From positions 36,881-100,880 of the IMG/VR virus record IMGVR_UViG_3300044981_000021: a stretch of DNA of 64,000 bases. One strand, written 5' to 3'. Below the pieces are notes generated by a model, which was given only the letters and a program-made list of their open reading frames with translations, ran no database searches and was not told where the DNA came from. Each line of letters opens with the position of its first letter. The stretch's first letter is position 1. Source of the stretch: a virus. The position numbers and the translations under genes were made by a program. Below are positions 14,027-46,447 of the stretch, piece by piece.

Positions 14027-14113
14027 TGGTCCTGGCAGCAGGAGTTCAACCCGCACGCCCATTACGAGCACTGCATCCTAAGTGCAGCGTGTCTAGCATT
14101 CCACCATGCCGGG
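14027..14113 (-). tRNA. tRNA-Leu (TAG)
   Basis: Class II cloverleaf, anticodon loop CTTAGGA in a CTGCA/TGCAG stem, encoded CCA. Acceptor stem has one C-A mismatch. T-loop is TTGAACT, i.e. G in place of the usual C56. Confidence 0.9.
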
Positions 14114-14116
14114 ACT

Positions 14117-14199
14117 GGTGCCCATGGAGCGATTTGCACGCTCACGCCTTGCGGCAGCGGGTCTTAAATCCGCCGTGTATCCTATTCCACCACATGGGC
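14117..14199 (-). tRNA. tRNA-Leu (TAA)
   Basis: Acceptor GCCCATG/CATGGGC, loop TTTAAGA, long variable arm, encoded CCA. T-loop TGCAAAT is non-canonical. Confidence 0.9.
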
Positions 14200-14205
14200 A
14201 AAATC

Positions 14206-14294
14206 TGGTGCATTGGGAGAGATTTCAACTCTCATTACCCGTAGGGTAGATCGTTTTACAGACGATTGCGACCAAGCGTATTCGCCTCCAATGC
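14206..14294 (-). tRNA. tRNA-Tyr (GTA)
   Basis: Acceptor GCATTGG/CCAATGC, anticodon stem ATCGT/ACGAT with loop CTGTAAA, long variable arm as in bacterial tRNA-Tyr, encoded CCA. T-loop TTGAAAT. Confidence 0.9.
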
Positions 14295-14295
14295 A

Positions 14296-14391
14296 TGGAG
14301 GAAGGTAGAGGAGTTTAACCCCCATCCCCGTAGGGAGCGACTGGGTTCAGGCCAGTTTGACACACGGTGTCCGTACCTTCCATGGCGGAGA
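14296..14391 (-). tRNA. tRNA-Ser (TGA)
   Basis: Acceptor GGAAGGT/ACCTTCC, anticodon loop CCTGAAC in ACTGG/CCAGT, long variable arm, encoded CCA. Confidence 0.9.
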
Positions 14392-14392
14392 A

Positions 14393-14470
14393 TATGCGAG
14401 TCGAACGCATTCGCCCCTTGCGGGTGCTCTTGTTTAGCAGACAAGCCCCTTGCCGTCCGGGTCATTCTCC
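14393..14470 (-). tRNA. tRNA-Ser (GCT)
   Basis: Acceptor GGAGAAT/ATTCTCC, loop CTGCTAA in CTTGT/ACAAG, encoded CCA. Its first nine bases include the stop codon of the nuclease gene ending at 14462 (GGA GAA TGA). Confidence 0.92.
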
Positions 14471-14872
14471 GATAATAAATTCTTTATATTTATTGCCTAC
14501 AACAATCATCCATTTGTTGCCCTTTAATTTACCGTAGGGAATTTCATAACAGTCGCCATCGTTGGTGACCACAAACAACACGTCCGCCGCGTTTACGTTA
14601 AACGTGGCATATCTAGCCTTACCGTCGGCCCGCATTGATGTTGAGCACAAACGAACAACCCACTTAATTCCACGCTTGCCAATTTTCTTTTGGCAGGTAA
14701 CTCGTACTTGTATTCGAGAAAATTTTCCATGCGCAAAAACCACAAGATCGAACGGCTGACTATCGGTCAACGGTATGCATACGGTATGGCCTAGCGATGT
14801 ATAGTGGGCGATGGCCACACCTATACCGTGGTCGCCTTTTTGTTTCGAGCCTCGATGTTCATTTGGCTTCAT
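14462..14872 (-). CDS. PD-(D/E)XK homing-type endonuclease
   Basis: A 136-residue protein with KGDHGIGVAIAHYTSLGHTV, PLTDSQPFDLVVFAHGKFSRIQVRVTCQKK: the E/D...D...Q-x-R/K layout of the group I intron-associated nuclease family that includes I-Ssp6803I. It lies inside the tRNA array and its stop is within tRNA-Ser(GCT), as expected of a tRNA-targeted homing nuclease. Confidence 0.75.
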   Translation of the reverse strand: MKPNEHRGSKQKGDHGIGVAIAHYTSLGHTVCIPLTDSQPFDLVVFAHGKFSRIQVRVTCQKKIGKRGIKWVVRLCSTSMRADGKARYATFNVNAADVLFVVTNDGDCYEIPYGKLKGNKWMIVVGNKYKEFIIGE

Positions 14873-14895
14873 ATCGTTAATCTAACATCTAATCT

Positions 14896-14983
14896 TGGTC
14901 CGGCCTCTCGGACTCGAACCGAGAATGCTTTTTAGGGCGGATGATCTTGAGCCATCTGCGGCTTCCAGTTTCGCCAAGGCCGG
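14896..14983 (-). tRNA. tRNA-Leu (CAA)
   Basis: Acceptor CCGGCCT/AGGCCGG, anticodon loop CTCAAGA, variable arm, canonical T-loop TTCGAGT, encoded CCA. Confidence 0.9.
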
Positions 14984-14991
14984 ATAAATTG

Positions 14992-15198
14992 TTATAGGGA
15001 TAAACTATACGACAGCCATGAACGGCTGAGGTTCGAGAGTCGCAATGAGCGTAGAAGAGTCATTGGGGTTACTATGACCGCGCCGATTGCTGTCATGTGA
15101 ATCAGCGCAGACCGTGCATCATTGGCGATTGACCTATCCTCGCGAAAGCCATCTGAGACTTGAATTCCCGTTTCGCTTAACTCAATGTGACAGCCCAT
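14992..15198 (-). CDS. possible small membrane protein
   Basis: A 68-codon frame starting MGCHIELSETGIQVSDGF with a hydrophobic middle (MTAIGAVIVTPMTLL). No clear ribosome site upstream. It fills the gap between two tRNAs; support is limited to frame length and composition. Confidence 0.35.
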   Translation of the reverse strand: MGCHIELSETGIQVSDGFREDRSIANDARSALIHMTAIGAVIVTPMTLLRSLRLSNLSRSWLSYSLSL

Positions 15199-15327
15199 TA
15201 TAGAGTTAATGTCGGCACCCTTTACTCTCAGCCGCCTCGGGTGCGAAATGTCCGGTGAAGCAATCGTTCGGTCGTACAGGTCTTTCTATTGGGTGGAATG
15301 TCTATCGCGACGTTCCGCGTTTAAAAT

Positions 15328-15402
15328 TGGGAGCAGGTACCGGATTTGCACCGGGTCTAAGCGTTATGAGCGCTTCGTATTGTCCTGCGCTACTAACCTG
15401 CT
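15328..15402 (-). tRNA. tRNA-Met (CAT)
   Basis: Acceptor AGCAGGT/ACCTGCT, anticodon stem AAGCG/CGCTT with loop CTCATAA, encoded CCA. An isoleucine (k2C34) identity cannot be excluded, but a separate tRNA-Ile(TAT) is present. Confidence 0.85.
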
Positions 15403-15408
15403 TCGATG

Positions 15409-15438
15409 ATTAAAGCATGAGCGCGGGACGCGAGTCAA
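15409..15438 (-). promoter_or_regulatory. promoter for tRNA-Met
   Basis: Minus strand TTGACT (15433-15438), 18 bases, TTTAAT (15409-15414), immediately upstream of the tRNA 5' end at 15402. Confidence 0.6.
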
Positions 15439-15441
15439 GTT

Positions 15442-16005
15442 TTATTCCGTGTCGAACTCAACCATTTCTTCGCCCTTGAATTTTACTTGTTGAAGAATTT
15501 CTAGTGGAATCAATCCATTCCTATATGCGACGATTACGCGATATTCTTCGAGTTTCAACTGACCCTTGAGTTTGTTGCACTCTAGGCAACAAGGAACTTT
15601 GAGTTTTCCGCCAAGACTTCGGGGCGTAACGTGGTCCTTGGTCCTAATAGCGTCCTTGGTGCAGTCTGTCATGTCCCGTCCGCAGTAAAAGCAACTGCTG
15701 TAATACTGCCGTGGCGTGATATTCGGGAAAAGCTTAATTCCAGGAATTTTGGGGGCCGATAACTGTATCGACTTAGGTTTTTTATCAGGAGCTAGGCGAA
15801 TAAGGTGTTTTTCGCCAACGGTATGCGGAAGTACACAGGTTCCGTTCGGAGCAACACATTCTACTGGTTCTACCGAAATACCGCCACGGGGAACATTTCC
15901 AAAATGATATTGGAAGCGTTGATCGGCTTCTGTGATATCTTCGGCATCACAGGCAAGAATAATCTTGCCCCCGCTATAGCGGTCGCGATAGATGTAGTGC
16001 TTCAT
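15442..16005 (-). CDS. HNH endonuclease
   Basis: A 187-residue protein. The C-terminal half has CFYCGRDMTDCT, RTKDHVTPRSLGGK, PCCLECNKLKG, a classical HNH with two Cys pairs. The N-terminus is unassigned. Free-standing in the tRNA array. Confidence 0.85.
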   Translation of the reverse strand: MKHYIYRDRYSGGKIILACDAEDITEADQRFQYHFGNVPRGGISVEPVECVAPNGTCVLPHTVGEKHLIRLAPDKKPKSIQLSAPKIPGIKLFPNITPRQYYSSCFYCGRDMTDCTKDAIRTKDHVTPRSLGGKLKVPCCLECNKLKGQLKLEEYRVIVAYRNGLIPLEILQQVKFKGEEMVEFDTE

Positions 16006-16014
16006 GGTTGGGCT

Positions 16015-16043
16015 AGGTTAATTTATGGTCAGCGGCAAGTCAA
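16015..16043 (-). promoter_or_regulatory. promoter for the HNH gene
   Basis: Minus strand TTGACT (16038-16043), 17 bases, TAACCT (16015-16020), ending about ten bases before ATG 16005. Confidence 0.5.
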
Positions 16044-16102
16044 GTTTCTCGCTTTAACATTTTAGTTATAACGCCATCGTTATTTTTACAACCTGAGCTA
16101 TT

Positions 16103-16132
16103 TTGCTCAGTATTGGCTCCCCAAACTTTATA
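16103..16132 (+). promoter_or_regulatory. plus-strand promoter
   Basis: TTGCTC (16103-16108), 18 bases, TTTATA (16127-16132), upstream of the gene at 16178. A CTGAGC/GCTCAG hairpin overlaps the -35. Confidence 0.45.
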
Positions 16133-16177
16133 GCCTTGTCACAGATCGTGACATTCCAACCAAGAGAGGAAAACACA

Positions 16178-16447
16178 ATGAACGTGCAAACACTGGCTGA
16201 AATCATCGAAAACCTGAGAGCGCAAGGCAAAGCATTCAACGAAGCCGCCGATACGCTTCAGGACAACAGGGGAAACCAGCAGAACGGAAATGGCCGCGCT
16301 AACGGCTTTTTAAGGCTGCCTCCACACGGAAACGCTGGGCGGCACATGAGCGCGGAGACTCGCAAGAAAATGTCGGCATCGCAGAAGGCGCGACATGCTT
16401 CCAAGCATATCCCTGCGATAGTGTCGGTTGATGATATGGTTGCCTAG
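16178..16447 (+). CDS. small protein with NUMOD3-like motif
   Basis: ATG 16178 follows AGAGAGGAAAACACA. The 89-residue product has a helical start and a basic segment MSAETRKKMSASQKARH that resembles the NUMOD3 DNA-binding motif of homing nucleases. It ends VA-stop, convergent with the gene at 16444. Confidence 0.6.
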   Translation: MNVQTLAEIIENLRAQGKAFNEAADTLQDNRGNQQNGNGRANGFLRLPPHGNAGRHMSAETRKKMSASQKARHASKHIPAIVSVDDMVA

Positions 16448-16593
16448 GCAACTAATTCATCTTCGGGTTCTGGCGTAGGTATGTATTCATCGTATCCGCC
16501 CCAGAACCCGTCGTCCTTTGCGACAGGGGGTGCGTAGGACCACAGGATGATCCACGCTAGGATTAGGGCAACGGTGATTAGGTAGGCAAGCAT
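16444..16593 (-). CDS. small membrane protein
   Basis: A 49-residue protein, MLAYLITVALILAWIILW then an acidic tail. Its TAG stop shares CTAG with the convergent plus-strand gene; the junction is the palindrome GTTGCCTAGGCAAC. Confidence 0.5.
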   Translation of the reverse strand: MLAYLITVALILAWIILWSYAPPVAKDDGFWGGYDEYIPTPEPEDELVA

Positions 16594-16597
16594 AAAA

Positions 16598-16672
16598 TGG
16601 TCGGGGTAGCTGATTCTGCCACAGCAACCCCTCGGTCCCAGGCCGAGTGCTCTGCTTTTGAGCTATACCCCG
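16598..16672 (-). tRNA. tRNA-Pro (TGG)
   Basis: Acceptor CGGGGTA/TACCCCG, anticodon stem CTCGG/CCGAG with loop CCTGGGA, encoded CCA. T-arm is degenerate (loop around TGGCAGAAT). Confidence 0.85.
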
Positions 16673-16677
16673 AAATT

Positions 16678-16753
16678 TGGTGGGACGGGCCAGAATCGGA
16701 CTGGCTACCACATGGGCTTCAGCCATGCACTCTACCGGCGAGTTCCACGTCCC
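16678..16753 (-). tRNA. tRNA-Phe (GAA)
   Basis: Anticodon stem CATGG/CCATG with loop CTGAAGC, T-arm GCCAG/CTGGC, acceptor GGGACG/CGTCCC, encoded CCA. Confidence 0.88.
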
Positions 16754-16770
16754 AAAATATTTTAGTGCGC

Positions 16771-16800
16771 TTGATAAAGTTTACGCAACCACGTCATAAT
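16771..16800 (+). promoter_or_regulatory. promoter for plus-strand HNH gene
   Basis: TTGATA (16771-16776), 18 bases, CATAAT (16795-16800); ATG follows eight bases later, so the message is nearly leaderless. Confidence 0.5.
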
Positions 16801-16807
16801 AACACTT

Positions 16808-17347
16808 ATGAAGATAGCCATCCATCATGGTAAACGCCGCAAACTTTATGAAACAAATTGCCAACACTGCAAGATATCGTTTTATACGCCAAAACATAAA
16901 CTAGACAAACAGTTGTCAAAGTATTGCTCCTTGCCGTGTTTCCACGCGGCCTCACGAACGGCAACAATAAAACCGTGCGCCATATGCGAAAAACAAATCA
17001 CGAGAACTCTAACGGCCTTGTCGCGATGCAAAAGTGGCCTATTTTTCTGCTCACGTAAATGTAAATCCATAGGCCAAAGATTTGAAAATACAACCATGGC
17101 CGCCTGCCATCCTGCGCATTACAAGGATGGTTCTTCGGCCTACGGTAGAATTGCGATTCGCCACCACGGTAATCACTGCAATCGTTGTGGCTACAAAGAA
17201 CATATTGAAATACTCCGCACTCACCATAAAGACAGAAATAGCGAAAACAACTTGCCGGATAACCTTGAGCGCTTATGCCCAAATTGTCACGAAACTGAAC
17301 ATTTTTTAGCGGGCGATGGTGTTTATACTGGACACAAACGCCACTAG
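16808..17347 (+). CDS. HNH endonuclease with zinc ribbons
   Basis: A 179-residue plus-strand gene in a minus-strand tRNA array, indicating insertion. N-terminal Cys pairs (NCQHCK, YCSLPCF, CAICEK, FCSRKCK) are followed by the HNH core CNRCGYKEHIEILRTHHKDR and RLCPNCHETEH. Confidence 0.88.
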   Translation: MKIAIHHGKRRKLYETNCQHCKISFYTPKHKLDKQLSKYCSLPCFHAASRTATIKPCAICEKQITRTLTALSRCKSGLFFCSRKCKSIGQRFENTTMAACHPAHYKDGSSAYGRIAIRHHGNHCNRCGYKEHIEILRTHHKDRNSENNLPDNLERLCPNCHETEHFLAGDGVYTGHKRH

Positions 17348-17363
17348 CTCACTGCTCAAAATT

Positions 17364-17438
17364 TGGTGGAGGCGCGGAGAGTCGAACTCCGGATACTTGG
17401 TTGCAGGCCAAGTGTGTTCCCGCTAGCACTACGCCCCC
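17364..17438 (-). tRNA. tRNA-Ala (TGC)
   Basis: Acceptor GGGGGCG/CGCCTCC, anticodon stem ACTTGG/CCAAGT with loop CCTGCAA, T-loop TTCGACT, encoded CCA. Confidence 0.9.
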
Positions 17439-17440
17439 AT

Positions 17441-17516
17441 TGGGGTATACGAGGAGGGTCGAACTCCCTAAAGACTGTTCCACAGACAGTCGCCGCACCG
17501 TTTGGCTTCGCATACC
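17441..17516 (-). tRNA. tRNA-His (GTG)
   Basis: Acceptor GGTATGC/GTATACC, anticodon stem GACTGT/ACAGTC with loop CTGTGGA, C73 and encoded CCA. Confidence 0.88.
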
Positions 17517-17522
17517 ATAACT

Positions 17523-17597
17523 TGGAGCTGAACGTCAGGCTTCAACTGACATCTCCGAATTCACAAGATTCGTGTTCTGGTTTTGAACTAGTTCAGC
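17523..17597 (-). tRNA. tRNA-Thr (TGT), embedded in an HNH reading frame
   Basis: Acceptor GCTGAAC/GTTCAGC, D-stem GTTC/GAAC, anticodon stem CGAAT/ATTCG with loop CTTGTGA, T-arm GTCAG/CTGAC, T73 and CCA. All arms pair. About 63 of its 75 bases are also the last codons of the HNH gene ending at 17535 on the same strand. Confidence 0.88.
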
Positions 17598-18293
17598 AAT
17601 TTCTCTAAATTCTCTTGTCCGTCTTTTCTTTCGCCTAGAAGCACTTGCTTGTTTATTTCGTGATCGAAACGTGGGCGTCAAGGCGTGGCAATTAGGGCAT
17701 AGCAATTTCAGGTTTTCGTCCTTATTGTTGTCGGCGTCTCCGTTGATATGTTCTATTTCTAGGGGTATTGGTTTTTGCAGCCACTCGGTCAAGCCGCAAC
17801 TTTCGCACCGATACCCACGAGTTCTAAATAAATATCCACGTAATGCATGACTAGTCCTAGCCGTTTCGGGAGAAGTGGTTAGACAATAAATCCGCATTCC
17901 GTAACACGAATTACAGAATTTCCTATGCGTCGAGCACGGCGTTCCACAATGTTCACACTGTCCGGACGTGAGTGCTCGCTTGCGGCGATGTTTTAAGTAA
18001 CACGCCCGACTACACGACCGCTGCTTTCGCTTCTCGTATGACATCTTTTCGCCACAATAAATACAACGCTTATTAGCAGCTTTTTCTCTAGCCGCCAAGG
18101 AAATCCCAACTCTAAATGCAGTCAATTTGTCTTTGGCTGCCAACCATCCGATGCGCCCAACATCTTCCCTCGACATTATCGGCTGTTCCCGTGGATCGTT
18201 TGTGTATATTCTTCGTGTTGTTTTTAAGGTGCGATCCCGATTCTTGTAATACCACCTGCGACGAGCCGCACGCCTTTTATCTTGGTTGCGCAT
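17535..18293 (-). CDS. HNH endonuclease whose 3' end overlaps tRNA-Thr
   Basis: A 252-residue protein. Several zinc ribbons (CIYCGEKMSYEK, CEHCGTPCSTH, FCNSCYG) precede the HNH core YRCESCGLTEWLQKPIPLEIEHINGD and KLLCPNCHALT. The final residues (about QNQNTNLVNSEMSVEA) are encoded by tRNA-Thr, indicating insertion at the tRNA with the frame running on into it. Confidence 0.85.
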   Translation of the reverse strand: MRNQDKRRAARRRWYYKNRDRTLKTTRRIYTNDPREQPIMSREDVGRIGWLAAKDKLTAFRVGISLAAREKAANKRCIYCGEKMSYEKRKQRSCSRACYLKHRRKRALTSGQCEHCGTPCSTHRKFCNSCYGMRIYCLTTSPETARTSHALRGYLFRTRGYRCESCGLTEWLQKPIPLEIEHINGDADNNKDENLKLLCPNCHALTPTFRSRNKQASASRRKKRRTREFREIAELVQNQNTNLVNSEMSVEA

Positions 18294-18301
18294 ATAAATG
18301 T

Positions 18302-18375
18302 TGGAGCCAAGAATACGAATCGGACGTATGCTTCGGTCGTACCAGGACCGCGTACTGCCACTATACGATCAAGGC
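18302..18375 (-). tRNA. tRNA-Thr (GGT)
   Basis: D-stem GTA/TAC, anticodon stem CGGTC/GACCG with loop CTGGTAC, T-arm ATACG/CGTAT, encoded CCA. The acceptor stem has two T-T mismatches in the middle. Confidence 0.75.
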
Positions 18376-18377
18376 TC

Positions 18378-18452
18378 TGGAGCCGAGACGGCGAATCGAG
18401 CGCCGATAACGAGTTTACGAATCTCGCATTCTTCCACTTGAATTATCCCGGC
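18378..18452 (-). tRNA. tRNA-Thr (CGT)
   Basis: Acceptor GCCGGGA/TCTCGGC, D-stem ATTC/GAAT, loop TTCGTAA, T-stem CGGCG/CGCCG, encoded CCA. Confidence 0.82.
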
Positions 18453-18458
18453 CAAACT

Positions 18459-18533
18459 TGGACTGCCGTGAGCGAATCGGACGCTCGTATAAGGTTTTGC
18501 AGACCTCAGCCTAAACCACTCGGCCAACGGCAG
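18459..18533 (-). tRNA. tRNA-Cys (GCA)
   Basis: Acceptor CTGCCGT/ACGGCAG, anticodon loop CTGCAAA in GAGGT/ACCTT, T-arm GAGCG/CGCTC, encoded CCA. Confidence 0.9.
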
Positions 18534-18539
18534 TAAAAT

Positions 18540-18640
18540 CTAGGTGTACGGTCCAAGAATCGCCGCGTTCCCGAATCGAACGGACCAACGCCACTGCTGC
18601 CTTGCAAGCGACCAGCGCCTTGTTGCGCACATACACCTAG
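18540..18640 (-). other. tRNA-like element with extra sequence, unresolved
   Basis: Ends form a 10-bp inverted repeat (CTAGGTGTAT / GTACACCTAG). Inside are a D-arm-like GCGC/GCGC hairpin, an anticodon-arm-like GTCGC-TTGCAAG-GCAGC and a T-arm-like stretch with TTCGATT, but about 19 extra bases separate the T-arm from the 3' acceptor strand and no CCA follows. A decayed or interrupted tRNA is the best guess. Confidence 0.4.
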
Positions 18641-18644
18641 AACT

Positions 18645-18718
18645 TGGAGCGGGATGCCGTAATCGAAACGGCGTCTGGAGTTTGGAAGACTCCGGCCTTG
18701 CCACTAGACGAATCCCGC
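18645..18718 (-). tRNA. tRNA-Gly (TCC)
   Basis: Acceptor GCGGGAT/ATCCCGC, anticodon stem GGAGT/ACTCC with loop CTTCCAA, T-loop TTCGATT, encoded CCA. Confidence 0.92.
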
Positions 18719-18964
18719 TTACTCAACGCATACACCGTTCATGTTTGTGGCGGTGCATTCTAAACAAAATTCTACCGCATGTTTAACGCATGGATACTGC
18801 TTCCAGCCATGCCTAGCCATGTAATGATCCCAATGGCTAGCGACCCAATAGCGGGGTCGCGAACTGGCACCAGCGCCGTGAGTCGGACACGGTACATCTG
18901 TTTTGGAGACAGATCGAGCACCCTTTTCGTCTTCGCTGGCAAAAATCTTCTTGAACAACTTCAT
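18719..18964 (-). CDS. small Cys/His protein spanning tRNA-Trp
   Basis: ATG 18964 has GGAAG upstream; the 81-codon frame MKLFKKIFASEDEKGARS passes through the whole tRNA-Trp gene and ends HGWKQYPCVKHAVEFCLECT...GVCVE at TAA beside tRNA-Gly. A shorter gene from an internal ATG (MARHGWKQYPC) downstream of the tRNA is an alternative. Confidence 0.35.
   Translation of the reverse strand: MKLFKKIFASEDEKGARSVSKTDVPCPTHGAGASSRPRYWVASHWDHYMARHGWKQYPCVKHAVEFCLECTATNMNGVCVE
18865..18940 (-). tRNA. tRNA-Trp (CCA)
   Basis: Acceptor GCCAGCG/CGCTGGT, anticodon stem ATCTGT/ACAGAT with loop CTCCAAA, T-loop TCCGACT, G73, encoded CCA. Confidence 0.9.
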
Positions 18965-18987
18965 TAAACGAACTTCCTTTCGTAATC

Positions 18988-19066
18988 TGGCGGTCGCAGC
19001 GGAATTTGAATCCGCGATCTGTTCCGTGACAGGGAACTGGGGACGGCCTGACTCCCCTATGCGACC
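18988..19066 (-). tRNA. tRNA-Asp (GTC)
   Basis: Acceptor GGTCGCA/TGCGACC, D-stem GGGG/CCCC, anticodon stem GTTCC/GGAAC with loop CTGTCAC, T-loop TTCAAAT, G73, CCA. Overlaps the stop of the gene at 19057. Confidence 0.92.
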
Positions 19067-19248
19067 GAATCTTTACAATGCGTACAGATGCATCCCCTGC
19101 CATGCAATTTAGAGATGCACTTACTGCACCAAAGTTGCGCCCAACCACCACAAAGTTTCTCGCCAATCACGTGCTCCTTTGCGTCCATGACGGTCATAAC
19201 TGCCCCGCTGCACCTGTGGCAAAACCCGATATGTTTCACGTGCGACAT
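19057..19248 (-). CDS. small zinc-ribbon protein ending inside tRNA-Asp
   Basis: A 63-residue protein with CHRCSGAVMTV, LWCSKCISKLHG and CICTHCKDSVA: three Cys pairs. The last codons and TAG stop are the first bases of tRNA-Asp. Confidence 0.55.
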   Translation of the reverse strand: MSHVKHIGFCHRCSGAVMTVMDAKEHVIGEKLCGGWAQLWCSKCISKLHGRGCICTHCKDSVA

Positions 19249-19253
19249 AAAAA

Positions 19254-19327
19254 TGGCCCCGAGTAGTTGAATCGAACAACTGTTGGCTGATCCAGAGTCA
19301 GCAGTCTTGCCACTAAACGAACTCGGA
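19254..19327 (-). tRNA. tRNA-Gln (CTG)
   Basis: Acceptor TCCGAGT/ACTCGGG, anticodon stem GCTGA/TCAGC with loop CTCTGGA, T-arm AGTTG/CAACT, encoded CCA. Confidence 0.9.
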
Positions 19328-19332
19328 AATCT

Positions 19333-19366
19333 TGGAGCCGGGAGTATTTTAATGAGCTATCCCGGC
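19333..19366 (-). other. tRNA remnant reduced to an acceptor stem with CCA
   Basis: GCCGGGA, then TAGCTCATTAAAATAC, then TCCCGGC-T-CCA: a perfect 7-bp acceptor stem, discriminator and CCA with only the first D-arm bases left. Looks like an internally deleted tRNA gene. Confidence 0.55.
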
Positions 19367-19428
19367 GCGCTCACTCGCGGAGCGTTGTCTGAAAAGGCGA
19401 TCAACCCTCCAGTCGCAACGACGCAAAA

Positions 19429-19502
19429 TGGAAGGGAGTCTGAGAATCGGACTCAGGTCTGATGATCCAAAGTCATCGGCATTGCCATTATGCGAACTCC
19501 CT
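19429..19502 (-). tRNA. tRNA-Gln (TTG)
   Basis: Acceptor AGGGAGT/ACTCCCT, anticodon stem GATGA/TCATC with loop CTTTGGA, encoded CCA. First bases overlap the TAG of the gene ending at 19501. Confidence 0.9.
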
Positions 19503-19686
19503 AACTCTTCAACGGAATTGCGCGTACGCATCTCGCGCAAATCACAAAACTTGAATCTACATCTTTTTCTAGTTTGCGCCGCGCCTCGCGACATTCTTCC
19601 ACTAGGGCACGATGGTCTGATAGCCCCATGCGGCAGTAATCTATCGTCCCGGGCATTACAATCGCGCCTAGAAGTTCATGCTTCAT
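19501..19686 (-). CDS. small hypothetical protein
   Basis: A 61-residue protein with a helical REARRKLEKDVD stretch and FVICARCVRAIP near the C-terminus. Start ATG overlaps the upstream gene's 3' end; the TAG stop touches tRNA-Gln(TTG). Confidence 0.55.
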   Translation of the reverse strand: MKHELLGAIVMPGTIDYCRMGLSDHRALVEECREARRKLEKDVDSSFVICARCVRAIPLKS

Positions 19687-19831
19687 AAATCCTTAACTCA
19701 AATGGCCCAAAGCGGTAACTTGTGTACGGGCTATATCCCCACATAAGCGTCCCGTTCATGCGTAACGTCTTGCCAAAACTCCATGCATCCCAATATGCGT
19801 GCCACGTTACGAGTTTGGAGCCGATAGTCAT
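19676..19831 (-). CDS. small aromatic-rich protein
   Basis: A 51-residue gene from ATG 19831, MTIGSKLVTWHAYWDAWSFG..., overlapping the next start. It begins eight bases after tRNA-Glu's CCA. Function unknown. Confidence 0.5.
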   Translation of the reverse strand: MTIGSKLVTWHAYWDAWSFGKTLRMNGTLMWGYSPYTSYRFGPFELRIYEA

Positions 19832-19838
19832 AAATCCT

Positions 19839-19913
19839 TGGTAGGGCCAACGGAAGTCGAATCCGTATTCACGCCTTGAAAGAGCGTTTACCTAGCCGTT
19901 AGTAGATGGCCCC
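19839..19913 (-). tRNA. tRNA-Glu (TTC)
   Basis: Acceptor GGGGCCA/TGGCCCT, anticodon stem ACGCT/GGCGT with loop CTTTCAA, T-arm ACGGA/TCCGT, encoded CCA. Confidence 0.9.
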
Positions 19914-19919
19914 AAAACT

Positions 19920-20264
19920 TTATACGGTCGCAGAATTGGCTATCACGGCCTCCGCGTATTCCACTAAGGGGCCATAACGCCTGCTATATCTCTTGTTTTT
20001 GCTTTGCTCCTTTGGCGTTGCCCAACGAACATTGCCACGTTCGTAATGACCGTTATTGTTTATCCTTTCTAGTGTTGAACCCTCCGGCCTCGGGCCTAAT
20101 TCTTACATGAATTCGCCAAACGAAACAAATCTAAATTCTATCCCCCTGCCGCCGTAGTACCTGAAATCTTCGCAATTACTATTCATGCAACGGTATCGCG
20201 CATGGTCGAAAGATTTATATTCCCGCTTAAATTGTTTCGTTAAGCCACTTCCCGAAAATCTCAC
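19920..20264 (-). pseudogene. HNH endonuclease interrupted by in-frame TAA
   Basis: GTG 20264 (TAGGAG upstream) opens VRFSGSGLTKQFKREYKSF, then YYGGRGIEFRFVSFGEFM, a TAA at 20103-20105, and the frame continues ELGPRPEGSTLERINNNGHY, RGNVRWATPKEQSKNKR to TAA 19920. The HNH at 47598 aligns across the stop (SFEQFYDELGARP), so the TAA replaces a sense codon. Confidence 0.75.
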
Positions 20265-20276
20265 CGTTAATCTCCT

Positions 20277-20311
20277 AAAAAACGTTTAGCCCCGCATTGT
20301 TTTTCGGGGCT
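20277..20311 (-). terminator. Rho-independent terminator
   Basis: Minus strand AGCCCCG, ten-base loop, CGGGGCT, then AAACGTTTTTT. It lies nine bases downstream of a palindrome copy and just upstream of the broken HNH gene. Confidence 0.7.
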
Positions 20312-20319
20312 AATTGAAC

Positions 20320-20332
20320 TACGTTAAATGTA
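20320..20332. repeat. 13-bp palindrome copy
   Basis: TACGTTAAATGTA in non-coding DNA, directly before a terminator. Confidence 0.8.
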
Positions 20333-20434
20333 CTTTCCCCGATTGTTTATGGCGTACCTTCCCCCGCCTGCCATTGGGCTGGTGTCGGGAAGCAATCGGC
20401 ATGAAATTGAACATTCATTGGTTAATGAAACAAG

Positions 20435-20462
20435 CCTAAAGCATGTCTGCTTGTTCTGTCAA
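20435..20462 (-). promoter_or_regulatory. promoter downstream of tRNA-Arg(CCG)
   Basis: Minus strand TTGACA (20457-20462), 16 bases, TTTAGG (20435-20440). Perfect -35, weak -10. Confidence 0.4.
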
Positions 20463-20470
20463 GAAAAAAG

Positions 20471-20547
20471 TGGAAGGCCGGATCGGACTTGAACCGACAA
20501 CCTCAAGATTCGGAATCTTGCGCGAGTTCCCTTTTCGCTTCCGGCCC
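20471..20547 (-). tRNA. tRNA-Arg (CCG)
   Basis: Acceptor GGGCCGG/CCGGCCT, D-stem GCGA/TCGC, anticodon stem CAAGA/TCTTG with loop TTCCGAA, T-loop TTCAAGT, encoded CCA. Confidence 0.9.
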
Positions 20548-20550
20548 AAA

Positions 20551-20627
20551 TGGTCCTAGCGACAGGATTCAAACCTGCATTCAACTGTTTAGGAAACAGT
20601 GCCGTTGTTCAGTTACGGAACGCTAGG
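20551..20627 (-). tRNA. tRNA-Arg (CCT)
   Basis: Acceptor CCTAGCG/CGCTAGG, anticodon stem ACTGT/ACAGT with loop TTCCTAA, encoded CCA. Confidence 0.9.
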
Positions 20628-20953
20628 AAAATCGGCCACAAGTCAAACTGCAAACTTTCGCTAGCTACTTCGTCCTTCTGCGCTGGGCCACTCACGACGG
20701 TTAAGCTCTATCTATCCCAGCCTTCGGTCGGCTCTTTCCTCCGATTAGGGGCGTCATCTTCCAGACTTTTTGCCAACTTCGTTGGTTCCACTAGAACCAT
20801 TACTGGATTGCATCTAACTTCGCCAACGCGACACTAGATCGACTTTCGGGAGCGGGTTAGATACCCGTTGCTTGGCCAAGCATCCCCTCGGCTAGTCGTC
20901 CAACCGGCAAGCGGCAGTTTTTTCGTGGCCGAAATAAATATAACACGGGAAAA
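20628..20953. other. gap without a confident gene
   Basis: About 325 bases between tRNAs. On the minus strand there is a frame MVLVEPTKLAKSLEDDAPN...EGWDR ending at TAG that stays open after it, and a tRNA-like stretch at 20855-20920 (ACGGG/CCCGC arm, palindrome TGCTTGGCCAAGCA) that does not fold as a full cloverleaf. I assign neither. Confidence 0.4.
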
Positions 20954-21031
20954 TGGTGCAGGATAGTGGACTCGAACCACTCGCCTCGGCTTTCGTAGAA
21001 CCGCGCTCTAGTCCTGATGAGCTAATCCTGC
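20954..21031 (-). tRNA. tRNA-Arg (ACG)
   Basis: Acceptor GCAGGAT/ATCCTGC, anticodon stem CGGTT/AGCCG with loop CTACGAA, T-loop TTCGAGT, encoded CCA. Confidence 0.92.
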
Positions 21032-21036
21032 AAACT

Positions 21037-21111
21037 TGGGAGCGCATAACCGGGTCGAACGGTTGTCTCTTAGGTAGAAGCCAAGGCTCTGTCCTGTTGA
21101 GCTAATGCGCC
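21037..21111 (-). tRNA. tRNA-Arg (TCT)
   Basis: Acceptor GGCGCAT/ATGCGCT, anticodon loop CTTCTAC in CTTGG/CTAAG, T-loop TTCGACC, encoded CCA. Confidence 0.88.
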
Positions 21112-21118
21112 ACAATTC

Positions 21119-21194
21119 TGGTGGAAGTGAGACGATTCAAACGTCCATCGGCCTACTTAAAAGGTAGGGGTCTTAATCGTTAGACGACACTTCC
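21119..21194 (-). tRNA. tRNA-Lys (TTT)
   Basis: Acceptor GGAAGTG/CACTTCC, anticodon stem CCTAC/GTAGG with loop CTTTTAA, encoded CCA. Confidence 0.9.
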
Positions 21195-21199
21195 AAAAC

Positions 21200-21274
21200 T
21201 GGTGGAGCGCAATGGACTCGAACCATTGTTTCCCGAGTAAGGGTCGGGTTGCCTAGCCACTGACGGAGCGCTCC
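21200..21274 (-). tRNA. tRNA-Lys (CTT) with C33
   Basis: Acceptor GGAGCGC/GCGCTCC, anticodon stem CCCGA/TCGGG with loop CCCTTAC: position 33 is C, not the near-universal T. Encoded CCA. Confidence 0.85.
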
Positions 21275-21280
21275 TAAAAA

Positions 21281-21358
21281 TGGTGCGGAATATTGGAATT
21301 GAACCAATGGCCTCGTCCTTATCAGAGACGCGCTCTAAGCCAACTGAGCTAATTCCGC
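21281..21358 (-). tRNA. tRNA-Ile (GAT)
   Basis: Acceptor GCGGAAT/ATTCCGC, anticodon stem CGTCT/GGACG with loop CTGATAA, encoded CCA. Confidence 0.92.
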
Positions 21359-21359
21359 A

Positions 21360-21435
21360 TGGTGCCGGAGCCAAGACTCGAACTTGGGACTTCCTGCTTG
21401 TAGGGCAGGCACTCTGGCCGCTGAGTTAATCCGGC
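21360..21435 (-). tRNA. tRNA-Val (TAC)
   Basis: Anticodon stem CCTGC/GCAGG with loop CCTACAA, T-arm CCAAG/CTTGG, acceptor GCCGGA/TCCGGC, encoded CCA. Confidence 0.9.
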
Positions 21436-21437
21436 AC

Positions 21438-21512
21438 TGGTTGAGGGCGATGGAATCGAACCATCCCGAAACAGTGTTTATAAGACGCCGCAGCGCTCCA
21501 GTGCTGCCCTCA
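21438..21512 (-). tRNA. tRNA-Ile (TAT)
   Basis: Acceptor TGAGGGC/GCCCTCA, T-arm GATGG/CCATC, anticodon loop CTTATAA in a stem with one C-A mismatch, encoded CCA. UAU anticodons are uncommon in bacteria. Confidence 0.82.
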
Positions 21513-21517
21513 AAATC

Positions 21518-21593
21518 TGGTACGAGTGGGAGGAATCGAACCTTCCGACACCGTGGTTATGGGCCACGTAATCTACCACTGATCTACACTCGC
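21518..21593 (-). tRNA. tRNA-Met (CAT) with C33
   Basis: Acceptor GCGAGTG/CACTCGT, anticodon stem CGTGG/CCACG with loop CCCATAA (C33), encoded CCA. Lacks the GGG/CCC anticodon-stem pairs of bacterial initiators. Confidence 0.85.
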
Positions 21594-21818
21594 TCAACTT
21601 AAACCGCCTACGCGCCATTTATCGTTGATTTGCGCGTATTCCTGCTCAATCTTTCCAACCCGAACCACGGTCCAACGGCGTTCATTCATAAGCGATTCTT
21701 CGTGGTCGAAGGTTACGACGTTACCGCGCTTTAATCTCCACGATGCATCTACCCATGCAGTCGTATGGCGAACACCGCCATTTACTTTACGCTCGAATTG
21801 GACTTGAACCATCCTCAT
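21594..21818 (-). CDS. small beta-rich protein
   Basis: A 74-residue protein, MVQVQFERKVNGGVRHTTAW..., ERRWTVVRVGKIEQEYAQI, compact and beta-rich. ATG at 21818 or three codons later. Its TGA stop directly abuts the 5' end of tRNA-Met. Confidence 0.6.
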   Translation of the reverse strand: MRMVQVQFERKVNGGVRHTTAWVDASWRLKRGNVVTFDHEESLMNERRWTVVRVGKIEQEYAQINDKWRVGGLS

Positions 21819-21825
21819 AAAAATA

Positions 21826-21913
21826 TGGCTGGCACGAGAGGACTCGAACCTCCAGAGGGTTGCCCCACTTCATTAACAGTGAAGCCCGCTACCAAATTAC
21901 GGTTTACATGCCA
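21826..21913 (-). tRNA. tRNA-Asn (GTT) with enlarged variable loop
   Basis: Acceptor TGGCATG/CGTGCCA, anticodon stem CTTCA/TGAAG with loop CTGTTAA, T-arm GGAGG/CCTCT, encoded CCA. The variable region holds an extra mini-hairpin GGG-GCAA-CCC, unusual for tRNA-Asn. Confidence 0.85.
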
Positions 21914-22374: not shown

Positions 22375-23163
22375 CTATTTCCAGGGTGACCCAGAGTGGA
22401 TAATCTTCAAATCGGTTTGCGGATCATCGAGAACTTGCAATGGCATCCAAAAGAACCCCGATAAGCCCCATCCCGAACCCCACGAATTTTGAATCAATAC
22501 GGCGGGAGGGCAACCAACGGGTCGAAGCGTGGGCGTTTCTCCAACGTCGCATCCAACCATTAAAACTTCGTGCCCTCCCATGACTTCTTCCCCTTGGGCG
22601 GGAATGGGCATAATCCCCGTTTGCGCTAGTTCGTCACTCTCGAAAGATGCATAAACCGTGAATCCAACCTCGATTGGCCATGGAGTTGGGTCGCCAATAA
22701 CACTTAACGCTGTTTGCGATCCCGTTAGGCCATGATAAGCGCCAAGTCTAAATTGTGCGGCATTGGCATCCTGCGAAGTTGTTGGCTTTTCGATATCCCC
22801 AGCGATATATGGGTAGACGGATAATTCGCAGCACCCACTGACGATCATAGTATTACAGAGCGTTGTACCATCTGCTCCAACGTCGTTTGGAAAGTTGCCT
22901 TGGGCGATTAATTCCTTGGCGTAGGTATATTGCGGAGAGAAAATTGGGGATGCGTTGAGATATTTGCGATGAATTAATTCATTGGCCGATGTCCCGGCAT
23001 GGCCCGTACACGAACCCTCTTGGCCTTGGTCTTTTATGGGGCCACACCAAATTCTTAGATCGACCACGGGAGAAGCAATCGTGGCACGAGAAAGCATTCT
23101 ATGGGCGGGAAGCGGCGCGGGGATATTGCGTCCGTAGCGCCGCCCAATTGTGCTGATAGCCAT
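22375..23163 (-). CDS. papain-like (C1A) cysteine peptidase
   Basis: A 262-residue protein with the family's catalytic landmarks: GPIKDQGQEGSCTGHA (oxyanion Gln and catalytic Cys near residues 47-52), GGHEVLMVGCD (His) and IQNSWGSGWGLSGFFWMP (Asn). No signal peptide or pro-domain is evident. Substrate unknown; virion entry or host-protein cleavage are options. Confidence 0.85.
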   Translation of the reverse strand: MAISTIGRRYGRNIPAPLPAHRMLSRATIASPVVDLRIWCGPIKDQGQEGSCTGHAGTSANELIHRKYLNASPIFSPQYTYAKELIAQGNFPNDVGADGTTLCNTMIVSGCCELSVYPYIAGDIEKPTTSQDANAAQFRLGAYHGLTGSQTALSVIGDPTPWPIEVGFTVYASFESDELAQTGIMPIPAQGEEVMGGHEVLMVGCDVGETPTLRPVGCPPAVLIQNSWGSGWGLSGFFWMPLQVLDDPQTDLKIIHSGSPWK

Positions 23164-31745: not shown

Positions 31746-31943
31746 CTAGTCTCCCGTTTTACGCCAGTAGGACCAGTCAGAGAAAGAAGCGATTTTCTCT
31801 CCGTTGGGATTTTTATCTGTCGGGTAGGCAAAAATCATAAGAACCCTGCCATCGTCACAGTAAGTTACATTTTTGAAGGCGAAGGTTACTTTTCCGGTTG
31901 TGGTTGGAGTGGGCGGTTCAAAACAAACAACTTCAACTTGCAT
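31746..31943 (-). CDS. small hypothetical protein downstream of a structured leader
   Basis: ATG 31943 has ACGGAG nine bases upstream. The 65-residue product MQVEVVCFEPPTPTTTGKVT is beta-rich. It is the first gene after the structured RNA at 31965-32079 and could be controlled by it. Confidence 0.55.
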   Translation of the reverse strand: MQVEVVCFEPPTPTTTGKVTFAFKNVTYCDDGRVLMIFAYPTDKNPNGEKIASFSDWSYWRKTGD

Positions 31944-31964: not shown

Positions 31965-32079
31965 GAAACGCAGCCTATTCCACGCTCTTTTGGGCGGCAC
32001 GTGGTACCCGGAGTTCCCTAGACTTATGTCGATCTAAGCGGGATCGACTGCCGGTTGTGGGTGAAACCCGCTGCGTTTC
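31965..32079 (-). ncRNA. structured leader or small RNA, undescribed
   Basis: A perfect 10-bp closing stem (GAAACGCAGC with GCTGCGTTTC) encloses about 95 bases containing hairpins GGGT/ACCC, GTCGATC/GATCGAC (seven-base loop CCGCTTA) and CCACG/CGTGG. The CCGCT loop can also pair with AGCGG at the base of the closing stem, a possible pseudoknot or switch. The predicted start of the promoter at 32087-32115 coincides with the first base of the closing stem. Confidence 0.6.
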
Positions 32080-32086
32080 TTCCTCA

Positions 32087-32115
32087 CCTATACACTACGG
32101 CGGGGAAAGCGTCAA
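32087..32115 (-). promoter_or_regulatory. sigma70-like promoter for the structured RNA
   Basis: Minus strand TTGACG (32110-32115), 17 bases, TATAGG (32087-32092). Expected start about seven bases on, near 32080. Confidence 0.65.
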
Positions 32116-33669: not shown

Positions 33670-33896
33670 AGCGCGAATTGTCCCCCTTGCCTTGGTTTCG
33701 CTCGCATCTCTTGCTCTGTACGCGCTAGCGGGAATGGTAGTTCCTCAGTTTTTGGTTCGTCCTTACGCTTGCCAGCCCAGACTAGCCATTGCGGACCGTA
33801 AGCTAATTGATACTCGCCTACTAGGTACACACAATCCCGAGGCGAACAATGATCTATTACTTCCACTTGTCCGCGATACTTGCCGTAGATTTTCAA
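33666..33896 (-). CDS. small hypothetical protein
   Basis: TTG 33896 is preferred: AAGAGG lies eight bases upstream and TTGA overlaps the upstream stop. Product MKIYGKYRGQVEVIDHCSPR, 76 residues, beta-rich. Confidence 0.5.
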   Translation of the reverse strand: MKIYGKYRGQVEVIDHCSPRDCVYLVGEYQLAYGPQWLVWAGKRKDEPKTEELPFPLARTEQEMRAKPRQGGQFAL

Positions 33897-34315
33897 GATC
33901 GTACCTCTTGAACGTAGGACGAAGGAATAACACACTCACAAAAATATCCCGACCTATCCTCTAGTGGGTCCGGTACTAGCTTTCGCGTAATGGTTTGCGG
34001 TACGTCTAATTGGACAATCGCAGGCTTCGCGTTAGGCTCTACCCTATACGAAAGCTTGCGCGGTTTATCGTCCTTTCCGCCATCTATAGGTGTACCGTAT
34101 GGTGCACGTTCGTACTTAGTGCGAAACAAAGCATACATCCTTGCCAAGTCTAGGTCTGTAGTCAAATAGATGTATGGTTTTTGTTCGTTTGGTAGATCGT
34201 GCAATTTGATACCGCGATTGTCTACTAGTCGAAAACTTGTTTCCCGATGCGGAATCAATCCCTCTCGCTGAATTGCTCTAGCCGCATCTAGCGTAGTTCC
34301 ATGATAGAAAATCAC
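33893..34315 (-). CDS. ADP-ribosyltransferase-like protein
   Basis: A 140-residue protein with MIFYHGTTLDAARAIQREGL, IPHRETSFRLVD, YIYLTTDLDLARMYA: the H-G-T start and Y-L-T strand of ART/RNA 2'-phosphotransferase-like folds. A second such protein is encoded at 39729. Phage ARTs modify host RNA polymerase or translation in known cases; the target here is unknown. Confidence 0.65.
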   Translation of the reverse strand: MIFYHGTTLDAARAIQREGLIPHRETSFRLVDNRGIKLHDLPNEQKPYIYLTTDLDLARMYALFRTKYERAPYGTPIDGGKDDKPRKLSYRVEPNAKPAIVQLDVPQTITRKLVPDPLEDRSGYFCECVIPSSYVQEVRS

Positions 34316-39728: not shown

Positions 39729-40433
39729 ATGAAACTCTATCATGGAACATCGGAGTGGGCCGCGAGGGAAGCCCTAAGCAAAGGCTTACATCCTCGCGGC
39801 GGCGGTAGCATAGACAATTGGAAGCATACCGTTAGCAGCAATCCCAACGGAGTGTACCTAACCGATACTTATGCTTGCCATTTCGCCATGCACGCAATGC
39901 AGAATCATCCGCGATTACCCAGCGAGGATGGCGGCATTCTTAAGCGGATAGCCGTGATCGAGATTGAAACTAGCAATCTAGTACAAGGCAAACTGAGGCC
40001 CGACGAGGACGCTATGGAGCAGATCGGGCGCGGGTTAGATGATATCGCGGGCGACATGAGGCAACGGACGATGTTCTATCGCGCCAAGGCCGCCAAACTG
40101 AATACGTGGGAAGCTAGCTTGAAAGCATTGGGAACCTGCGCCTATTACGGCCCTATTCATCCGCGTCACTTTACGCGCATCGCCTACTTTGAACCCAAAA
40201 AGAATCGAGACATGGCCTTAATGATGATGGATGGGTCGGTGTCCACTATAGCGTTTAGGATTTGTGGCCATTTTCATCGCAACTATACGCAATGGTTACT
40301 TGGGGCCGACATCAAACCGACCGACATTAGCCTAATTCCTGACGAAAAACAGCAGGAATGGCTCAAGGACGTACTTGACAATCGCAAAGGGGTTGAACTC
40401 GTAAACCTGAGAGAAAAACAAAAAGCAGCGTAA
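39729..40433 (+). CDS. ADP-ribosyltransferase-like protein
   Basis: A 234-residue protein with MKLYHGTSEWAAREALSKGL, ...NGVYLTDTYACHFAMHA and RIAVIEIETSNL: H-G-T motif and Y-L-T strand of the ART/2'-phosphotransferase-like fold, with a longer C-terminal part than the relative at 33893. Likely modifies a host target. Confidence 0.65.
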   Translation: MKLYHGTSEWAAREALSKGLHPRGGGSIDNWKHTVSSNPNGVYLTDTYACHFAMHAMQNHPRLPSEDGGILKRIAVIEIETSNLVQGKLRPDEDAMEQIGRGLDDIAGDMRQRTMFYRAKAAKLNTWEASLKALGTCAYYGPIHPRHFTRIAYFEPKKNRDMALMMMDGSVSTIAFRICGHFHRNYTQWLLGADIKPTDISLIPDEKQQEWLKDVLDNRKGVELVNLREKQKAA

Positions 40434-44569: not shown

Positions 44570-46447
44570 TTAGAACGACTGTCCTTCTGCCGCTGCTAAT
44601 TGCTTAGCCTTGGCTTTTTGTTCATCTGTCGGCTTACCGCCCGTCCATCCCGCTTTTTGGAGATAGCTTTGCGCTCTAGTTAGTAGGCGGTCTTTCAGTT
44701 CTTGTTGGGCGCGTAGATAGTCGGCCTTGGACATCAATTTGTCGTCTTTTTGGTAAAGCTGTGCGGTATTACGCATAGATGAAATAGCCCCAAGCGCTTG
44801 TTCGGTATTCATCTTAGCGTTCAACATCGTTGTTGCTTTATCTAGAATCTCTTTCGAGAAACGACTAGTGTGCATCTTGGTAAAACCAGATTGAGCCGTC
44901 AGTAAGTCGTCATATAGCGATTGCGCATCCTTCTTGCCCATTCCGTAATGCGCCATGAATTCACCAACCGACCCACCAATAGGACCGATATAGGTTGGAT
45001 GAGATTTAATAACCTGCTCAATACGGTCTAGCTTTTCAAGCAATGTTCCCGCAGTGGCAGCAGTTTGTTGCTGCATCTGTCCCGGCTTATAGGCGGATAT
45101 CTCCTTTAATGGAATTGGATTACCATAGGCATCTACCGGCTGTGTATCCCCGGACTCATCTAAGGTCAGCTTGCCGCCGCGCTGGTCGCGCCCATCTTGA
45201 ATTCGCTGATCGAAAAGAACCTTTTCTTCGTTGAAGTCTGTTTTGCCTTCTTTGTTAGCCGCCGCTGCCTTGAGTTGTTTCTGATACTTATCGTCCCACG
45301 GTTTAGCCCTGTCAATGAGTTTCTGTGCTCGCTGTACTAACTCAGGCGATCCGCCGCCTTTATTGTCGATGATGGTCTTAGCATCTTCTATGGCCTGCCC
45401 TGCCAATTTGCCATTTTCTTCGGCAAAATTACTTTCTGCCTTATCTAGTGTCTTACGAAATTCCGCAGTCTTAGCCATTTGATCGGGCTTATAGTTGGGG
45501 CTGAAGTTGTGGATGTAATCGGTAGCGCGATCTTTACCAACCACAAACTCTCTTCCGTTACGCACAGACTTAGCAGGAATAGCCGTCTTTGGTTCTTGGC
45601 CTTGAGCGATGGCATATAAATCGTCAAAGTTATCGGGCACGGGAACCTTAATGCTTCGCATGTAGCCCTTAACTTGGTCGCTAGTTTCTTGTGGAGCATC
45701 TAGGCCGTCGCGAGGCGCAAGTTTGGATGTTTCGTTTTCAACTAACGCCTTACGTCCTGCATGAACCAGAAGTGATGTACCATCGGTCGAGTTAGTCCCA
45801 GCGGGAACAGAACCATTCATTGGCGGTATGCCAGCTTCTTCATGCCCGGGCAGCTTCCAATCGAAAGCCCCTTCCATGGAGTTATTTTTTACATGGAATA
45901 CGGCCTTGGTTGGATGCTCGTAGGTTGAAAACCCAGTGGGGGCAATCATTACTAAATCGTTTGGATATTGTTTCTTGGCCGACTGTAATTGGTCCGCTAG
46001 ATCGGCATCTTTATCGGAAGTTCCACCAACAATCTCGGCATTTCCTTCTTGGTAGAGATTGTCAAACCATCCTGCCATGGTGTCGTGGGCGGCTTTTTGC
46101 GAAGCCTCGTCGGCTTGCGCCAGTGCGTGCTTTGCTTGTAGATATTGAACCTGCGTCATCGCAATACGTTGTTGACGCATCGTAGCTTCATCTGCTTGTG
46201 CTTGTTGTTGCTGTTGCTTCTGCTGATTTACTTGCTGCGCATTAATCCCCGCAGCCATAGAGCGCGTATAGGGATTGCTCTGATTCTGTCCTAGCGCGGC
46301 TACTCCGCCTTGCACGGCCCCTCTTACTAGGGTCTGGACGAGATTCCCAAAGAATCCAGTCCCGCCCGAAATACCCATTTGGCCACCATTAATCATGCCG
46401 CCTTGTTGCTGTACGGGTTGCGAATTGTCAGTCTGCGGGTCGGGCAT
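44570..46447 (-). CDS. internal-virion-like protein
   Basis: A 625-residue protein: Gly-rich start (GGMINGGQMGISGGTGFFG), a Gln-rich coiled stretch (QQVNQQKQQQQQAQADEATM), long helical body and TLLEKLDRIEQVIKSHPTYI near the C-terminus. Likely an ejection or internal core component. Confidence 0.6.
   Translation of the reverse strand: MPDPQTDNSQPVQQQGGMINGGQMGISGGTGFFGNLVQTLVRGAVQGGVAALGQNQSNPYTRSMAAGINAQQVNQQKQQQQQAQADEATMRQQRIAMTQVQYLQAKHALAQADEASQKAAHDTMAGWFDNLYQEGNAEIVGGTSDKDADLADQLQSAKKQYPNDLVMIAPTGFSTYEHPTKAVFHVKNNSMEGAFDWKLPGHEEAGIPPMNGSVPAGTNSTDGTSLLVHAGRKALVENETSKLAPRDGLDAPQETSDQVKGYMRSIKVPVPDNFDDLYAIAQGQEPKTAIPAKSVRNGREFVVGKDRATDYIHNFSPNYKPDQMAKTAEFRKTLDKAESNFAEENGKLAGQAIEDAKTIIDNKGGGSPELVQRAQKLIDRAKPWDDKYQKQLKAAAANKEGKTDFNEEKVLFDQRIQDGRDQRGGKLTLDESGDTQPVDAYGNPIPLKEISAYKPGQMQQQTAATAGTLLEKLDRIEQVIKSHPTYIGPIGGSVGEFMAHYGMGKKDAQSLYDDLLTAQSGFTKMHTSRFSKEILDKATTMLNAKMNTEQALGAISSMRNTAQLYQKDDKLMSKADYLRAQQELKDRLLTRAQSYLQKAGWTGGKPTDEQKAKAKQLAAAEGQSF

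Follow-up and report, generated by a model that had tools for sequence, protein, structure and literature searches.

GOLLD and ROOL are phage-associated RNAs of unknown role that are often found near tRNA genes, and their structures have been reported (PMC12286853). Y RNAs combine an outer stem with an inner helix of conserved sequence, a plan that recurs in the element described here. The window analysed in this study is a 64,000-nucleotide stretch of a 100,880-nt virus record. On its minus strand, at 32079-31965, it carries an RNA gene of about 115 nt lying 3' of a plausible sigma-70-type promoter. By comparison with its relatives, the element consists of two stems of variable sequence, the closing stem P1 and the inner stem P3, the second of which can bear an apical hairpin, together with a near-fixed core. 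The outer-stem pairing persists through complete change of letters while the core letters stay nearly fixed, and the element is therefore a real functional RNA, although its job is not yet known.

The boundaries of the element, P1 to P1' (31965..32079, minus strand), rest on a match to a covariance model, R1, and on covariation across the family. The window element scores 84.9 bits with R1 (E 1e-23), being itself one of the 23 sequences used to build that model. Its ends form a perfect 10-bp P1, in which GAAACGCAGC (32079-32070) pairs with GCTGCGTTTC (31974-31965). Taken alone, the window fold is only moderately unusual, at -47.2 kcal/mol against -35.9 +/- 3.8 for shuffled sequences (z = -3.0), and 2 of 200 shuffles equalled it. 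The promoter-like sequence TTGACG-17-TATAGG, read directly from the minus strand (32087..32115; TTGACG 32115-32110, TATAGG 32092-32087), agrees with the consensus at 9 of 12 positions and places the predicted +1 no more than one base from the start of P1. Some 1% of positions drawn at random from the locus score as high, and a stricter promoter scan omits this sequence, whose TATAGG lacks the final T. An ATG at 31943 on the minus strand, 21 nt past P1 and preceded by ACGGAG, opens a 65-aa ORF with a ribosome-binding site (31746..31943, minus strand). Homologues of this ORF occur in contigs G003 and G012, and it had no family match in PHROG or Pfam.

Several other features of the window were recorded in passing. 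An array of 25 tRNA genes occupies 14027-21913 on the minus strand, with an HNH-endonuclease-like ORF inside it (17535-18293). A papain-family cysteine protease lies at 22375-23163 (minus strand; PF00112, E 5e-9) and a C5-cytosine DNA methylase-like ORF at 52396-53031 (minus strand; PF00145, E 5e-7). Two ORFs, at 33893-34315 (minus) and 39729-40433 (plus), begin with a ...YHGT... stretch and have no Pfam match; judged by eye, they could possibly be phage ADP-ribosyltransferases or RNA phosphotransferases.

A search of isolate phages with the DNA itself found nothing, and close relatives sought through the downstream 65-aa protein were likewise not found. A 14-mer of P1 used as a search pattern gave chance matches only (this set was reused as an unselected control), and a DNA-repair exonuclease led to distant relatives only. 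Related contigs were reached through two window proteins that we take to be major-capsid-like and portal-like from their size and place, without a family search. A 22-nt similarity in G003 (102 kb) led to a full element, the first homologue, which lies between two tRNA-Arg genes; its P1 is unrelated to that of the window yet still pairs. Motifs common to these two elements then served as patterns for scanning viral contigs three times: GGTTTCACC-N60-90-AGAGCGTGG, CCGCC-N1-8-AAGAGCGTGGAATA, and GGTTTCACC-N38-68-CCGCC-N2-4-AAGAG. In every scan some of the core was left unspecified, and neither P1 nor P3 entered any of the three patterns. The family so assembled comprises at least 30 distinct elements in 28 contigs, window included (29 beyond the window). 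The contigs, most of them fragments, come from uncultured phages and span about 7-215 kb, and their tRNA complement ranges from none to about 30. Members are about 95-140 nt long, apart from one of about 200 nt. The covariance model was seeded with 23 of the 30; R1 matches all members at 42-93 bits except a degenerate copy in G012, and found no match at E <= 0.1 in 50 unselected viral contigs. Because exact patterns miss divergent members, all member counts are lower bounds.

Exact-pattern searching also inflates the apparent conservation of the letters searched. Each core block, however, also emerged from one or more scans whose patterns left it free: the 5' GGUUUCACC was present in every element of the second scan without being part of its pattern, members from the first scan carry CCGCC and GAAU, neither of which was asked for, and the third scan shows permitted variation in the 3' core (GCGGAA in L294, GUGAUU in L279).

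Covariation provided the strongest support for the structure. In a MAFFT alignment of 23 sequences the letters of P1 (5' arm GAAACGCAGC, 32070..32079; 3' arm GCUGCGUUUC, 31965..31974, both minus strand) vary, with changes on both sides at all 10 pairs, and 92.6% of P1 cells remain paired. The covariation score of the whole structure in this alignment was 0.668, against 0.160 when shuffled and at most 0.149 when slid. We also compared the pairing of each sequence with its own partner to its pairing with partners taken from other sequences. Nearly all members retain a P1 that pairs: own partners formed 9.31 of 10 P1 pairs against 4.41 for swapped partners, and P3 gave 14.1 against 10.8 (window arms CCGG at 32051..32054 and CCGG at 32008..32011, minus strand); none of 100,000 permutations was as high in either case, nor any of 20,000 in a second test of P3. 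RNAalifold, run unguided, recovered P1, P3 and a further helix, P2. The same matched/mismatched pairing test gave no support to the window-type P4 hairpin (CCACGU/GCGUGG) or to other candidate helices. CCACGU/GCGUGG and GGGU/ACCC are alternative pairings of the window sequence, seen in its minimum-energy fold, whereas the alignment prefers UUUCAC/GUGGAA.

The family consensus reads 5'-P1-N-GG-UUUCAC-C-N-P3-[optional hairpin]-AGNGAA-P3'-N-CCGCC-N-AAGAGC-GUGGAA-UAN-P1', and the blocks GGUUUCACC, AGNGAA, CCGCC and AAGAGCGUGGAAU are nearly fixed throughout. GGUUUCACC and AAGAGCGUGGAAUA adjoin P1 at its base, the P3 loop holds AGNGAA, and CCGCC lies between P3 and the 3' core. At the window, all on the minus strand, the 5' core GGUUUCACC occupies 32060..32068 and is invariant in 23/23 sequences of alignment A2; AGNGAA (here AGGGAA, 32014..32019), on the 3' side of the P3 loop, is present in most members though it was not searched for; CCGCC (31993..31997) is conserved in members from the first scan, which left it free; and the 3' core AAGAGCGUGGAAUA (31976..31989) is invariant in A2 up to AAGAGCGUGGAAU. 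The N/N position beside P1 forms a Watson-Crick pair in none of the 28 elements in which both letters can be read. The apical hairpin P3a, GUCGAUC-CCGCUUA-GAUCGAC (32028..32048), a perfect 7-bp inverted repeat in the window, is an optional insertion, with a hairpin at this site in about 12 of 28 members. The proposed P2 pairs UUUCAC (32066-32061) with GUGGAA (31983-31978). Since both strands are invariant in the seed set and lend no covariation support, this helix is plausible and not proven; its exceptions, from the scan that left the 3' region free, are an A.C mismatch in L294 and the loss of two pairs in L279.

A divergent copy at L154:1832-1931 (G012:62641-62740, minus strand) keeps P1 and an inner helix, with P2 re-paired around a bulge, and lacks AGNGAA and the CCGCC...AAGAG core. 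This copy may be decaying or altered.

The first-pass annotation, made without homologues, fared well on the layout of the locus. Its 115-base element closed by a perfect 10-bp stem, its TTGACG-17-TATAGG promoter with a start at the first base of that element, and its gene start with a ribosome site just past it all held, the predicted start to within a base. Its three internal hairpins held only in part, as only the middle one (P3, with optional P3a) is conserved, and its possible pseudoknot of CCGCT with AGCGG found no support, falling in the loop of the optional, unconserved hairpin and lacking covariation support. The covariation check in homologues that it had put forward yielded compensatory changes in both P1 and P3, and these, together with the absence of an Rfam match, support its claim of an undescribed structured RNA.

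At the gathering threshold, Rfam 15 returned no family for the window and only tRNAs, none of them coincident with the element, at nine homologous loci. Relaxing the search to E <= 10 gave only sX8 on the opposite strand of the window (12.4 bits), and only sub-threshold matches at chance level at the L173 and L159 elements. A blastn search with two elements against 50,697 isolate phage records found no credible copy (one human-gut phage match, H25, was rejected for lack of the motif). Across 84,980 bacterial and archaeal genomes (257 Gb) the 3' motif occurred 15 times, exactly the number expected by chance in our own calculation (2 x 257 Gb x 8 / 4^19 = 15), and none of the 15 had the 5' motif beside it. 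With no credible isolate-phage copy and only chance-level bacterial and archaeal matches, the class belongs, as far as we have seen, to uncultured phages. Against E. coli rRNA, the conserved motifs matched nothing beyond 6-mers of ACCGCC and a 10-mer with one mismatch, which is the chance expectation. No description of the motif was found in the openly licensed literature searched, and an earlier listing among candidate phage RNAs elsewhere cannot be excluded. With that reservation, we consider that the elements likely constitute an undescribed class of small structured RNAs in diverse uncultured phages. They are new as an RNA class; newness of mechanism has not been shown.

The genomic setting of the elements varies. 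A tRNA gene lies 0-9 nt from the element in five contigs (G003, G026, G032, G037 and G040); for G026 and G032 the tRNA model detects no other tRNA in the contig. G026 and G046 each carry two copies of the element. Promoter-like sequence lies immediately upstream in three cases: the window, and two with near-consensus promoters just 5' of P1, namely the second G029/G046 copy (TTGACA-17-TATAAT) and G040/L190 (TTGACA-17-TATTAT). Family-wide, promoters were not enriched, the mean score being 6.3 at elements and 6.0 at random positions. When the ORFs lying up to 8 kb from 26 elements were compared all against all, no protein family recurred among the neighbours other than HNH-like genes, which occur sporadically, and the 65-aa gene, which close relatives share.

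The first-pass annotation had suggested either a riboswitch-like leader or a stable small RNA. The small RNA is favoured because elements adjoin tRNA genes in five phages and no downstream family recurs; the promoters in three cases and the paired copies in some genomes point the same way. On balance, then, we lean towards a free-standing, trans-acting stable RNA over a riboswitch, an inference made without transcript data and with function unproven; action in trans is itself only an inference, drawn because the elements share no target gene. Under this model the RNA would be a stable transcript from its own promoter in the window, the second G046 copy and G040, and would be cut out of tRNA transcripts in G003, G026, G032 and G037, its ends sealed by P1. 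The core would form one compact site, a UUUCAC/GUGGAA helix flanked by G.U and G.A pairs, to which CCGCC, AAGAG and AGNGAA would be brought. That site would be recognised by, or act on, a host or phage component in trans, with P1 and P3 serving as scaffolding only, and at the window any read-through into the small downstream gene would be incidental. Against the free-standing reading, a ribosome site and start follow soon after P1 in several members, as in a leader, and promoters are not found family-wide.

The main rival is a cis-acting leader, either a riboswitch or a protein-sensing element, in which opening and closing of P1 would control downstream translation. In its favour, four members (window, G028, G036 and G012) have a ribosome site and start codon some 20-30 nt past P1, and the 65-aa gene stands behind the element in both the window and its relative G012 (with a 52-aa ORF in between in G012). 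However, the homologue of that gene in G003 is 4.5 kb from the element, the class has no common downstream gene family, some elements lie inside or beside tRNA genes, other elements lack a start with a ribosome site on their own strand within 150 nt, and no expression platform is seen. We regard a leader as unlikely: disfavoured, not excluded. A self-cleaving ribozyme that trims tRNA-operon or other phage transcripts is also improbable, its cleavage being hypothetical. The size of the element and its variable stems around dense, fixed and partly unpaired letters do resemble small ribozymes, and free placement, two copies per genome and tRNA adjacency would fit as well. Nevertheless, no Rfam ribozyme family matches, both RNA ends are closed by P1, and beyond P1 there is no conserved position that would point to a cleavage site. 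That the element is merely an intergenic stretch that folds by chance can be all but ruled out: z = -3 on its own, for one of many stretches in a 64-kb record, would be weak evidence, but 30 elements with covarying stems and a fixed core exclude this explanation.

One further possibility is a phage Y RNA of a novel type, to which a Ro60/Rsr (TROVE) ring protein would bind, suggested in part by the contigs themselves. TROVE proteins exceeded the cut-off in 6 of 30 element-bearing contigs (L296, G100:46750-47694; L297, G003:63418-64344; G037:105002-105895; G033:57659-58603; G036:19007-19762; G028:55899-56621) and in 0 of 50 unselected contigs (Fisher p 0.002). This comparison is confounded by size and tRNA content, as the six are large tRNA-rich phages. 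The other 24 contigs, including the window's 100.9-kb record, have no TROVE, with the reservations that a host might supply one and that most records are fragments. Moreover, YrlA-like RNAs distinct from the element, all scoring below gathering, are found close to the TROVE gene in G100 (46083-46189), G037 (104509-104626) and G003 (about 1.2 kb away), and marginally in G036. The YrlA model (RF02553) does not match the window element; a weak G026 match (E 0.02) shares sequence with the adjacent tRNA and with part of an element. Because the window's phage lacks TROVE and separate YrlA-like RNAs occur elsewhere, we do not class the element as a Y RNA, a reading that is very unlikely and for which there are no binding data; the TROVE association stays open. 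As an observation in its own right, six uncultured tRNA-rich phages with TROVE, four of them with YrlA-like RNA, apparently encode Ro/Y RNA modules.

Beyond the free-standing RNA that we prefer, a bolder reading is that the class has a biochemical activity of its own, either as a new small ribozyme fold or as the RNA half of an unknown phage ribonucleoprotein; in the latter version it would be produced alongside phage tRNAs and would protect host translation or take it over. We hold this with less confidence, and would sooner bet against it than for it, if not by a wide margin. That the two main stems have been wholly replaced around an unchanging core implies a specific partner or chemistry. 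Few new RNA classes have so fixed a core, the members here are spread across unrelated-looking phage contigs, and with the covariance model and alignment in hand the class can be tested directly.

The element shares features with several known systems. Like riboswitch leaders it has a fixed core, a closing P1 and sometimes a ribosome site downstream, but it has no consistent downstream gene and several copies lie beside tRNA genes. Like the twister, twister-sister, pistol, hatchet, hammerhead and HDV-like ribozymes it is about 100 nt long with variable stems around a fixed core, but there is no evidence of cleavage. YrlA, the bacterial Y RNA, is likewise phage-borne, about 110 nt long, closed by a terminal stem, built on a conserved inner helix and found near tRNAs; it differs in showing no sequence or covariance match to the element, and a distinct YrlA-like RNA is present in several of the same phages. 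GOLLD and ROOL, also structured and phage-associated, are several hundred nucleotides long. The class may join these three, GOLLD, ROOL and YrlA, among the RNAs of phage tRNA arrays, whose roles are still debated.
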